The translations under genes and the position numbers were made by a program. Source: Kutzneria sp. 744 (lineage in GTDB: Bacteria; Actinomycetota; Actinomycetes; Mycobacteriales; Pseudonocardiaceae). Taken from it: 35,870 nucleotides of DNA. The stretch lies in the NCBI RefSeq assembly GCF_000568255.1, contig NZ_KK037166.1, positions 6,584,077-6,619,946 on the forward strand, in the 5' to 3' direction. Positions 8,034-32,665 of the stretch are shown in pieces. Position 1 is the first letter of the stretch. Each line of letters begins with the position of its first letter. The notes under the pieces are model-generated. The model was not told where the DNA came from and ran no database searches. It saw only the letters and a list, made by a program, of their open reading frames with translations.

Positions 8034-8086
8034 GTGCGATCTGGGCGATCCATGCCTGGGAAGAACTCAGGCATGGATCGCACTTA
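8031..8086 (+). terminator. rpoC 3' hairpins with two competing folds
   Basis: Two alternative pairings share the same right arm. The inner fold pairs 8045-8058 with 8068-8081 (14 perfect base pairs, 9-nt loop). The outer fold pairs 8031-8041, which includes the rpoC stop codon, with 8076-8086 (11 perfect pairs) and can coexist with only part of the inner stem. It probably ends or processes the rpoBC transcript. A ribosome on the stop codon would hide the outer left arm and favour the inner stem. Confidence 0.65.
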
Positions 8087-8087
8087 G

Positions 8088-8146
8088 CGCCTTCTGGGGG
8101 CTGAGCCCCCAGACCCCCACACCGGGGGCAAGCCCCCGGACCCCCG
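8088..8146 (+). repeat. GC-rich palindromic intergenic repeat, copy 1
   Basis: CTGGGGGC (8094-8101) pairs with GCCCCCAG (8105-8112) over a 3-nt loop. After ACCCCCACA a second hairpin follows: CCGGGGGC (8122-8129) with GCCCCCGG (8132-8139) over AA. The same core and order recur at 31310-31360, and the first half recurs at 31585-31613. Similar GC-rich palindromes are common between genes in actinomycete genomes. Here it lies directly downstream of the rpoC terminator hairpins. Confidence 0.75.
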
Positions 8147-30339: not shown

Positions 30340-30816
30340 GTGGAGCAGCCAGTGCCGTCAGACGCCAAGCGAGTGTCGGATGCCGACCGCGGGATGGTGG
30401 CCGGCCAGCTCAAGAAGGCCCATGCGGAGGGCCGCCTCGACCTGAACGAGTTCGACGAGCGCACCCGGCTGGTGTGGGAGGCGCGGACGTTCGGGGAGCT
30501 GGCGGCGGTGACGGCGGACCTGCCCGATGTGCGTCAACCGGTGCCGTGGTCGCGGTCGGAGCTGGTGCAGGAGCCGGTGTCGACGAGCGCGCCGACGGCG
30601 GAGGTGGCGCGCCGGCCGGAGGCCCGTGGGTCGGCGGTCATGCGGGTGGCGACCGGGGCCTGGTTCGCGGCGAGCCTGGTGAACTTCGTGATCTGGGCCA
30701 TCGTGGTGTTCACCGAGGGCATGGTCTACCCGTGGTGGATCTGGGTGGCCGGACCGTGGGGAGCCCTGCTGGTCGCGGGCTACATCCTGGGCCTGGGACG
30801 CGACAACCGGGGCTGA
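30340..30816 (+). CDS. DUF1707-domain membrane protein
   Basis: A 158-residue protein. The GTG at 30340 follows AGGA (30329-30332) at 7 nt. Residues 11-62 (RVSDADRGMVAGQLKKAHAEGRLDLNEFDERTRLVWEARTFGELAAVTADLP) match the DUF1707 pattern common in actinobacteria. After a Pro/Ser/Glu linker, two hydrophobic helices follow (about 105-126 and 131-152) with the aromatic turn YPWWIWVAGPWG. An in-frame GTG at 30304 would add 12 residues including a rare TTA codon; I prefer 30340. Function unknown. Its presence between map and infA breaks the usual linkage. Confidence 0.85.
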   Translation: MEQPVPSDAKRVSDADRGMVAGQLKKAHAEGRLDLNEFDERTRLVWEARTFGELAAVTADLPDVRQPVPWSRSELVQEPVSTSAPTAEVARRPEARGSAVMRVATGAWFAASLVNFVIWAIVVFTEGMVYPWWIWVAGPWGALLVAGYILGLGRDNRG

Positions 30817-30864
30817 GTGCAGGCCCTGTCACTGGGGCTGACCGGGCGTGACCTGCGTCTGGAT

Positions 30865-30893
30865 TTGGGCGATGCGGGAAGGCACCGTACACT
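30865..30893 (+). promoter_or_regulatory. Candidate infA / alpha operon promoter
   Basis: TTGGGC (30865-30870) and TACACT (30888-30893) lie 17 bp apart. The predicted leader of about 140 nt contains a 7-bp hairpin (30934-30940 with 30949-30955) and a 12-nt near-repeat GTGATCTTGATG / GTGATCTTGGTG (30937 and 30960). Confidence 0.5.
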
Positions 30894-31039
30894 GGATTGA
30901 CGGCGCACTCGTCGCGTCGATTCCGTCGTGCCTGCGGTGATCTTGATGTCACCGCGTTCGTGATCTTGGTGGGCGATCGGAGTCGGGGTGTCGCGCGGGC
31001 CGCACACCAGTCATACCACCGTCACGAAACGCGGAGGAC

Positions 31040-31261
31040 ATGGGCAAGAAGGACGGGGCCATCGAGGTCGAGGGCCGCGTGGTCGAGCCACTCCCCAACG
31101 CGATGTTCCGAGTCGAGTTGGAGAACGGCCACAAGGTTCTCGCACACATCAGCGGCAAGATGCGGCAGCACTACATCCGTATCCTGCCGGAGGACCGGGT
31201 TGTCGTGGAGCTGTCGCCCTACGACCTGTCCCGCGGCCGAATCGTCTACCGCTACAAGTGA
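31040..31261 (+). CDS. infA: Translation initiation factor IF-1
   Basis: The 73-residue OB-fold factor occupies the 30S A site during initiation. [73 protein letters not shown] is complete. GGAGG at 31033-31037 is only 2 nt from the ATG, an unusually close spacing. The gene is followed immediately by palindromic repeat copy 2. Confidence 0.98.
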
Positions 31262-31367
31262 GGGTAGGGATGTGGGGCCGCATGCTTCGCCGGAGCACCC
31301 CTACCGGTGCTTTCTGGGGGCCCGGCCCCCCAGACCCCCACGCCGGGGGCAAGCCCCCGGGCCCCCA
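31262..31367 (+). repeat. GC-rich palindromic intergenic repeat, copy 2
   Basis: It begins at the base after the infA stop. GGTAGGG (31263-31269) pairs with CCCTACC (31299-31305) around a loop containing GCATGCTTCGCCG (31280-31292). Then CTTTCTGGGGG leads into a hairpin (31314-31320 with 31327-31333) and, after ACCCCCACG, CCGGGGGC (31343-31350) with GCCCCCGG (31353-31360) over AA. The second half matches copy 1 almost base for base; the first half matches copy 3. Confidence 0.8.
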
Positions 31368-31422
31368 CCTCGGGCGCCGGATTCCGGAGCCCGTACGACT
31401 CGCACAGCAGGAGTGCACGACC

Positions 31423-31536
31423 GTGAAGGTCCAGCCGAGCGTCAAGAAGATCTGCGACAAGTGCAAGGTGATCCGCCGTCACGGCCGGGTCATGGTGATC
31501 TGCGACAACCTGCGTCACAAGCAGCGTCAGGGCTGA
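31423..31536 (+). CDS. rpmJ: Large ribosomal subunit protein L36 (zinc type)
   Basis: The 37-residue L36, with zinc ligands Cys11, Cys14, Cys27 and His32 ([24 protein letters not shown]). The GTG at 31423 follows AGGAG (31409-31413) with a 9-nt spacer. It is flanked on both sides by the palindromic repeats, so it sits as a small island between infA and rpsM. Confidence 0.96.
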
Positions 31537-31547
31537 GCAGAGGGATT

Positions 31548-31613
31548 GGGTCAGCATGCTTCGCCGCTGACCCTCTGTCAGGTTCTTTCTGAGGGCTCCG
31601 CCCCCAGACCCCC
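31548..31613 (+). repeat. GC-rich palindromic intergenic repeat, copy 3 (short form)
   Basis: Eleven bases after the rpmJ stop, GGGTCAG (31548-31554) pairs with CTGACCC (31567-31573) around a loop carrying the same GCATGCTTCGCCG as copy 2. CTTTCTG follows at 31585, then CTGAGGGC (31589-31596) with GCCCCCAG (31600-31607), containing one A-C mismatch. The second CCGGGGGC hairpin of copies 1 and 2 is absent. Confidence 0.75.
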
Positions 31614-31846
31614 GAGCCTGATCACCGGCCAAGTGCTCGTCGCTGATCCACTCAAGTGGACGCGACCACAAGTACACACACCTCCTCGACCCTGCCGAGT
31701 GCCACACGCACTCGGCTCACCCCCGGACTCCAGGCCGGGGCTGGGACAGCACCCGCGCGAGCGGGTGCAACGGCACAGCGAGTCGGTCCCGGAACGGACG
31801 AGGAGCAGACCTGGAGCGATGAAACAAGTGAGGAGCAGTACGCCGC
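31614..31846 (+). promoter_or_regulatory. rpsM leader with three tandem hairpins
   Basis: No gene is seen in this part of the 310-nt rpmJ-rpsM gap. Three hairpins stand in a row: 31694-31702 with 31708-31716 (9 perfect pairs, loop CACAC); 31721-31726 with 31735-31740 (6 pairs); and 31749-31756 with 31761-31768 (8 perfect pairs closing a GCGA loop, a GNRA tetraloop). A separate promoter for rpsM is likely in such a long gap, but I found no convincing -35/-10 pair. Confidence 0.5.
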
Positions 31847-32227
31847 ATGGCACGACTCGCTGGCGTCGACCTCCCCCGCGAAAAGCGGATGGAGATCGCG
31901 CTGACTTACATCTTCGGCATTGGCCGGACTCGCTCGAAGGCACTCCTGGCCGCGACGGGCATCAGCCCCGACCTGCGCGCCAAGGACCTGGGCGACGACG
32001 ACCTGGCCAAGCTGCGTGAGCACATCGAGGCCAACTACAAGGTCGAGGGTGACCTCCGCCGCGAGGTCCAGGCCGACATCCGTCGCAAGATGGAGATCGG
32101 CTGCTACGAGGGGCTTCGGCACCGTCGTGGGCTTCCCGTGCGTGGTCAGCGGACGAAGACCAACGCCCGCACCCGCAAGGGCCCGAAGAAGACGGTGGCC
32201 GGCAAGAAGAAGGCCGGTAAGAAGTAA
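31847..32227 (+). CDS. rpsM: Small ribosomal subunit protein S13
   Basis: The 126-residue S13 protein of the 30S head bridges to the 50[35 protein letters not shown] and the C-terminal [27 protein letters not shown] are canonical, ending in a Lys-rich tail. AGGAG at 31831-31835 lies 11 nt upstream. Confidence 0.98.
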
Positions 32228-32257
32228 CCCCCGCTAGCTAGGAGATCTGAAGCAGAA

Positions 32258-32665
32258 ATGCCACCCAAGACTCGCTCCGGCGCCGGGGTCAAGAAGGTCC
32301 GGCGCAAGGAGAAGAAGAACGTCTCTCACGGGCACGCCCACATCAAGAGCACGTTCAACAACACGATCGTTTCCATCACGGACCCGACCGGCGCCGTCAT
32401 CGCGTGGGCCTCGGCCGGCCACGTGGGCTTCAAGGGCTCGCGTAAGTCGACGCCGTTCGCCGCGCAGATGGCCGCCGAGAACGCCGCCCGCAAGGCGGCC
32501 GAGCACGGCATGCGCAAGGTCGACGTGTTCGTGAAGGGCCCCGGCTCCGGCCGGGAGACCGCGATCCGCTCGCTGCAGGCGGCGGGCCTCGAGGTCGGAA
32601 CCATCCAGGACGTGACCCCGCAGCCCCACAACGGCTGCCGCCCGCCCAAGCGGCGCCGGGTCTAG
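32258..32665 (+). CDS. rpsK: Small ribosomal subunit protein S11
   Basis: The 135-residue S11 protein of the 30S platform. The stretch [54 protein letters not shown] and the end [16 protein letters not shown] are typical. It follows rpsM by 30 nt; AGGAG at 32241-32245 is 12 nt before the ATG. Confidence 0.98.

Follow-up and report, generated by a model that had tools for sequence, protein, structure and literature searches.

In most of the actinobacterial loci examined, the gene rpsM appears, from comparison of sequences, to be preceded by a conserved leader that contains a pseudoknot. This leader, whose conserved structure appears to be new, is more interesting than the two repeat copies that flank rpmJ just upstream of it and are called copies 2 and 3 below. 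For those copies the preferred reading, on which our judgement is evenly poised, is that they are weak hairpin-cluster terminators inside the operon, at the border of infA-rpmJ and the alpha operon. The window, i.e. the whole stretch of 35,870 nucleotides that was analysed, corresponds to contig positions 6584077-6619946 of a single-contig genome of 11.65 Mb, and according to Pfam it carries infA, rpmJ, rpsM, rpsK, rpsD, rpoA and rplQ in this order (Table 1). IF-1 of the window is identical to IF-1 of Lentzea, Saccharothrix and Amycolatopsis species, which would place the genome within Pseudonocardiaceae or close to it. No sigma-70-type promoter was predicted within 30800-32300. Comparison within the genus covers seven genomes, namely the window's own (G000) and those of six congeners (G001 to G006).

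Table 1. Features of the window discussed in the text
Feature	Position	Strand	Remarks
Copy 1: strong hairpin with the same GC palindromes, directly after rpoC (ends 8033)	8037..8146	+	z -7.3
infA (IF-1)	31040..31261	+	Pfam eIF-1a, 1.7e-30
Copy 2 element: hairpin cluster between infA and rpmJ	31262..31393	+	orthologues in G001, G004 and G005; whole not beyond shuffles
Copy 2 hairpin A: GGTAGGG 31263-31269 / CCCTACC 31299-31305	31263..31305	+	all 7 pairs formed in every one of 5 copies
Shared 13-nt loop, copy 2	31280..31292	+	
Copy 2 hairpin B: GAGCACC 31293-31299 / GGTGCTT 31306-31312, then TCTGGGGG	31293..31312	+	z -4.4
GC palindrome 1, copy 2	31313..31334	+	
GC palindrome 2, copy 2 (copy 3 without counterpart)	31343..31360	+	
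Hairpin D, 5' of rpmJ	31371..31393	+	-16.8 kcal/mol, z -2.84
rpmJ (L36), GTG start	31423..31536	+	Pfam Ribosomal_L36, 2.2e-19
Copy 3: insertion of 85 nt flanked by CTGA repeats	31533..31617	+	absent from 6 of 6 congeners; z -2.59
Copy 3 hairpin A: CAGAGGG / CCCTCTG	31538..31577	+	
Shared 13-nt loop, copy 3	31554..31566	+	
Copy 3 hairpin B: CTGAC/GTCAG (31567-31581) and T-rich GTTCTTTC	31567..31589	+	terminator-like by scan
Copy 3 right-hand hairpin TCAGGTTC/GAGCCTGA, around GC palindrome 31588-31608	31578..31621	+	-21.2 kcal/mol, z -3.66
rpsM leader candidate	31681..31849	+	covariance model 109.2 bits (own sequence in training set)
rpsM (S13), opens rpsM-rpsK-rpsD-rpoA-rplQ	31847..32227	+	Pfam

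How compact is the infA-rpmJ-rpsM series in other genomes? The initial annotation had taken it for a normally compact operon, but in 55 parsed members of the family from other genera the rpmJ-rpsM spacer measures 145-277 nt, with a median of 201 nt. The infA-rpmJ spacer of the same members measures 19-128 nt (median 53 nt), and that of the window's genus 97-161 nt. In 74 loci of a wider set the rpmJ-rpsM spacer is 133-284 nt, apart from four loci in which it is 13-27 nt; seven of the 146 loci were dropped because parsing them into spacers failed. With rpmJ-rpsM spacers as wide as these, the series is therefore normally split before rpsM. The four loci with the short spacers (L043, L048, L049 and L051) belong to Blastococcus, Goekera and Trujillonella, and show no leader match. 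In E. coli, rpmJ closes the spc operon and rpsM opens the alpha operon with its own leader. The border described here is like that of E. coli in that rpmJ ends one unit and rpsM begins the next with its own leader, although here rpmJ follows infA and the leader is of another structure.

In the predicted structure of the leader, helix P1 (31682-31688/31799-31805) closes over several hairpins, including P2 (31695-31702/31708-31715) and P3 (31721-31726/31735-31740). The pseudoknot (31728-31734/31810-31816) has one arm on the 3' side of P1, with its end 30 nt upstream of the ATG, and a Shine-Dalgarno-like AGGAG stands at 31831-31835. When actinobacterial spacers were searched for GC-rich stem-loops with a loop that pairs to a downstream stretch, the pseudoknot was found in 125 of the 132 spacers kept after exclusion of duplicates and of spacers of 100 nt or less, compared with 13 of 660 dinucleotide shuffles, the distance from its 3' arm to rpsM being 19-40 nt. 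In an alignment of 63 sequences, chosen by hand from 91 filtered leaders, pairing amounts to 99.2% for P3, 96.6% for the pseudoknot, where many changes are compensatory, 81.7% for P2 and 73.2% for P4; the 95.0% of P1 is biased upward, because the filter favoured canonical arms of P1 (not of P2, P3 or the pseudoknot). Altogether 89.9% of the alignment cells are paired, and the covariation value, 0.396, exceeds those of shuffles (0.140) and of slid controls (0.059-0.131). The nested fold of 31700-31810 is only mildly better than that of shuffles (z -1.55; 12 of 200 as good), and it is thus covariation, rather than energy, that supports the leader.

A covariance model from which the pseudoknot was left out matched 44 of 50 loci at an E-value of at most 0.1, six of the 50 being members of its training set; the six misses are the four loci with spacers of 13-27 nt together with L067 and L073. 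Matches were also obtained at L045 (Dietzia) and at L070 and L081 (Corynebacterium), three loci in which rpmJ was not seen in the interval from infA to rpsM. Therefore, the leader goes with rpsM and not with rpmJ. Other actinobacterial loci, some of them long enough to be expected to include rpoA, gave no more than one match each. In a sample of the phylum under stricter filters, the model matched in 16 of 296 genomes and had no match in 280; the 13 strongest of the 16 matches end at the start of rpsM, and the three weakest show no such start.

Release 15 of Rfam, among whose families is Alpha_RBS of E. coli, gave no match at gathering score in the whole window or in eight loci of other genera, and between 31200 and 31900 of the window it gave two unrelated weak matches only, at E-values up to 5. 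No description of the leader structure was found in a literature search outside of which most subscription papers lay. It is to be noted that the existence of an rpsM UTR is not new, because a 216-nt rpsM 5' UTR has already been reported to be expressed in Mycobacterium tuberculosis, with regulation suggested from its homology with the rpoA 5' UTR (PMC3207917). This UTR occupies the same place as the leader; the accessible text of that report gives neither a co-varying structure nor a pseudoknot for it, whereas the leader structure presented here comes from actinobacteria other than M. tuberculosis. S4 leader candidates before rpsM have been listed in Clostridia and Fusobacteriales (PMC7247131, Table 1; PMC10931766), and PMC7247131, in its accessible part, has S4 leaders for other phyla and only L17 and L31 leaders for Actinobacteria. 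The main text of PMC11109978, as far as it is accessible, does not mention rpsM among 30 ribosomal leader candidates, and the accessible part of PMC8470358 calls the autogenous control of actinobacterial ribosomal operons little studied. As described in the accessible parts of these sources, the S4 leader of the E. coli alpha operon and the candidates in Clostridia and Fusobacteriales resemble the leader in being structured and in lying directly upstream of rpsM-rpsK-rpsD-rpoA-rplQ. The E. coli leader, by the same accessible accounts, has a pseudoknot as well, which comprises the ribosome binding site, whereas the arm of the one found here is placed 3' of P1 and stops 30 nt short of the ATG.

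The leader is a candidate element for autogenous control of the alpha operon. From gene order, in which rpsD is the third gene of the rpsM-rpsK-rpsD-rpoA-rplQ operon, and from the analogy with E. coli, we infer that it may bind S4. A wider proposal, which we put forward tentatively and with somewhat less than even confidence, is that a protein of the operon, most likely S4, would control rpsM-rpsK-rpsD-rpoA-rplQ through this uncatalogued, actinobacteria-wide leader, and that in the window a duplicated weak terminator between rpmJ and the leader would be added to it, so as to make a control in two steps, at transcription and then at the leader. A co-varying leader in front of the alpha operon, which also encodes the alpha subunit of RNA polymerase, offers, in many orders of actinobacteria, a candidate regulator that can be tested directly.

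Copies 2 and 3 flank rpmJ as the initial annotation had described them, with the same 13-nt loop, CTTTCTG (starting at 31310 and 31585, respectively) and a GC palindrome. The loop, GCATGCTTCGCCG, occurs exactly twice on the forward strand and never on the reverse strand of the 11.65-Mb genome, both times beside rpmJ, and a control gave no occurrence. The pattern CTTTCTGNGGGNNCNGNCCCC fits both copies without a mismatch, and at up to two mismatches it has four matches in the window, where 0.02 are expected; the exact TTTCTG-palindrome pattern has only two occurrences in the genome. The interval of about 30 nt given between loop and CTTTCTG holds if it is counted from the start of the loop (30 and 31 nt), and from the end of the loop it is only 17-18 nt. 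What had been seen as one left hairpin does contain the shared loop, but it is really two overlapping hairpins. In each copy, hairpin A consists of a 7-mer paired with a downstream 7-mer, and hairpin B is short and is followed by a T-rich run; since the loop of B is the 3' arm of A, the two are mutually exclusive. Hairpin A of copy 3 has an alternative inner stem, GGGTCAGC at 31548 with GCTGACCC at 31566. An H-type pseudoknot between A and B was considered unlikely by reasoning, as hardly any nucleotides are free to cross the stem.

The two copies had been thought to be alike in layout and to have unrelated stems. The layout is indeed common to them, but copy 3 can be aligned with copy 2 at 79% over 73-74 nt (query positions 9-81 of 89 nt) and with copy 2 of the congener G001 at 80%, and the copies are homologous as judged from these alignments. 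Because they align at 79-80%, the shared loop comes at least partly from shared ancestry; therefore the loop alone is no proof of selection, of which a conserved loop with variable stems had been taken as the mark. The other half of that argument, preserved pairing, fares better. Over five copies (copy 2 of G000, G001, G004 and G005, and copy 3), 35 of 35 pairs of hairpin A and 32 of 33 of hairpin B are kept, with changes on both sides, although these counts have no unbiased control, because the arms were picked by eye in the five sequences. Among the orthologues of copy 2, hairpin A reads GGTAGGG/CCCTACC, GTTAGGG/CCCTAAC or GTTGGGG/TCCCAAC, so that two of its pairs are altered on both sides, and a G-T intermediate is seen in G001.

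Copy 2 is recognisable in the three congeners G001, G004 and G005, and other sequence takes its place in G002, G003 and G006. The copy 2 of G005 is the most diverged, and its left half compares with copy 3 no better than the best shuffles do (3 of 1000 as good). Copy 3 is found in none of the six: the alignment of G001, G003 and G004 passes the insertion point without a break, and in G002, G005 and G006 the spacer is without it. Thus, the comparison of spacers in relatives, proposed earlier as a check, cuts both ways. CTGA is single at the insertion point in G001, G003 and G004 and stands at both ends of copy 3 (31533-31536 and 31618-31621), with the stop codon of rpmJ inside the first repeat, although so short a repeat (4 bp) may have arisen by chance. 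Copies 2 and 3 differ by about 20%, yet copy 3 is absent from a congener that is 96% identical over the preceding 500 nt. Among 200 genomes of the family, no other match comparable to these was found for copy 3 at an E-value of 0.001; the lesser matches do not exceed 45 nt in any of 11 further genomes, and G000 itself has one more, of 40 nt, at another place. Two matches to the left half, in G123 and G190, fall inside open frames of 199 and 248 codons or at their ends, and were taken as chance. The copies beside rpmJ show gain and duplication of composite terminator-like elements inside an essential operon.

Compared as wholes with shuffles, copy 3 has the better fold (z -2.59; 3 of 200 as good) and copy 2 does not (z -0.16; 89 of 200 as good), and the two GC palindromes of copy 2 together also do no better than shuffles (z -0.71). 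A terminator scan picked copy 3 and not copy 2. The T-run is short and interrupted in both copies: it reads GTTCTTTC after hairpin B of copy 3, and TCTGG after hairpin B of copy 2, whose arm already uses two T. Measured against dinucleotide shuffles, the 75 nt upstream give z -0.35 for copy 2, -1.24 for copy 3, and -0.49, -1.15 and -1.86 for the copies of G001, G004 and G005, so that by this control none of the rpmJ copies reaches -2 and their folds are unexceptional.

The GC palindrome belongs to a class of the genus. Its pattern occurs 52 times in the seven genomes, 1-15 times per genome, against five times for the reversed pattern as a control, and three of the 52 are rpmJ copies. The surroundings were examined for 33 distinct palindromes of the 52, and six of these stretches contain a second palindrome. 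For 28 of the 33, the upstream 75-nt stretch folds at z of -2 or below against dinucleotide shuffles; the G001 rpmJ copy is among the five above this value. A tRNA on the same strand lies within 260 nt upstream of 15 of the 33 palindromes, copy 1 follows rpoC and another member follows rpsI. The upstream energies are -26.9 to -27.3 kcal/mol for the rpmJ copies of G000, G001 and G004 and -28.4 to -51.1 kcal/mol for 32 other elements, the rpmJ copy of G005 being inside the range of the class with -30.0 kcal/mol. I read this as strong copies at the ends of units and weak copies inside a unit. Weak copies beside rpmJ are as expected, because the elements must let essential genes be read, but their weak folds are equally a warning that they may not terminate. 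A literature search with the letters of the GC palindrome brought nothing relevant, only an unrelated virus paper.

The layout common to the copies and to the class behind tRNA genes, rpoC and rpsI argues for reading the copies as putative terminators, as do the kept pairing of hairpins A and B and the age of the hairpin between infA and rpmJ that is described below. In the composite terminator of the genus, a hairpin specific to each gene would be followed by a short run rich in T and then by a single GC palindrome or a pair of them. After infA and rpmJ, such elements would cause partial termination, lower read-through and protect 3' ends, and would separate infA-rpmJ, as one unit, from the alpha operon that rpsM opens and whose own leader has the pseudoknot. 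We infer both that RNA polymerase terminates at the copies and that termination is partial; its extent could be adjusted through hairpins A and B, which exclude each other. According to the accessible parts of two reports, hairpin clusters act as terminators for which poly-U is not necessary (PMC8355165), and 3' ends of Streptomyces transcripts are highly structured and lack U (PMC8269248). In both systems, as accessible, adjacent hairpins stand just past the stop codon, whether a U-tract follows or not, as they do here, whereas the elements described here lie inside a conserved ribosomal operon, have a tail of sequence-conserved GC palindromes and overlapping hairpins, and are putative as to termination.

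Could the copies instead be a low-copy palindromic or mobile repeat of REP/MITE type that landed in the operon and is functionless there? The 85-nt insertion of copy 3 between CTGA repeats, absent from all six congeners, and the recurrence of near-identical palindromes behind unrelated genes are consistent with it. We nevertheless hold it to be very improbable, since the palindromes number only 1-15 per genome and mostly (28 of 33 examined) follow strong hairpins, the loop is nowhere else in the genome, a search with copy 3 gave only a piece of the right half, and the paired arms are preserved. Dispersed copies of the full unit in any number were not found in the window's own genome or in the 200 family genomes, where the full unit stands only beside rpmJ, and a high-copy mobile repeat is ruled out by the copy counts. 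As attenuators, the copies would let a ligand, or a ribosome translating infA or rpmJ, choose between termination and read-through by way of hairpins A and B, and the overlap of A and B is indeed kept in all five copies in spite of their different sequences. This too seems improbable, if less so than the repeat: the five sequences are few and their arms were picked by eye, hairpin B of copy 3 is weak when alone (-5.3 kcal/mol, z -1.2), and nothing suggests a ligand.

The main rival to weak termination is that the copies serve RNA processing or stability, as endonuclease sites or as barriers to 3' exonucleases that give infA, rpmJ and rpsM different mRNA levels once the transcript is cut. We regard this as unlikely on balance but well ahead of the attenuator. 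The weakness of the rpmJ copies as terminators suits it, as do the structured, U-lacking Streptomyces ends in the accessible part of PMC8269248 and a hairpin between infA and rpmJ that many members of the family have, mostly with no T-run; against it, the T-run and the GC palindromes of the copies match elements behind tRNA genes, rpoC and rpsI, where termination is expected. A stem of at least 7 pairs is present in 36 of 53 distinct infA-rpmJ spacers of the family (three of the 53 from the window's genus), against 9.2 expected from mononucleotide shuffles, and 33 of the 36 start within 20 nt of the infA stop. One type of this hairpin, represented by 16 sequences, has both-sided changes at three of eight pairs. 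The hairpin in the infA-rpmJ spacer is old, and because the older infA hairpins mostly carry no T-run, RNA protection would suit them as well. In the family loci L172-L230, the first 35 nt past the infA stop form a short hairpin in many cases, often with a GNRA-like loop (GAGA, GTGA or GCAA), and such post-infA hairpins are of at least two unrelated sequence types at the same place.
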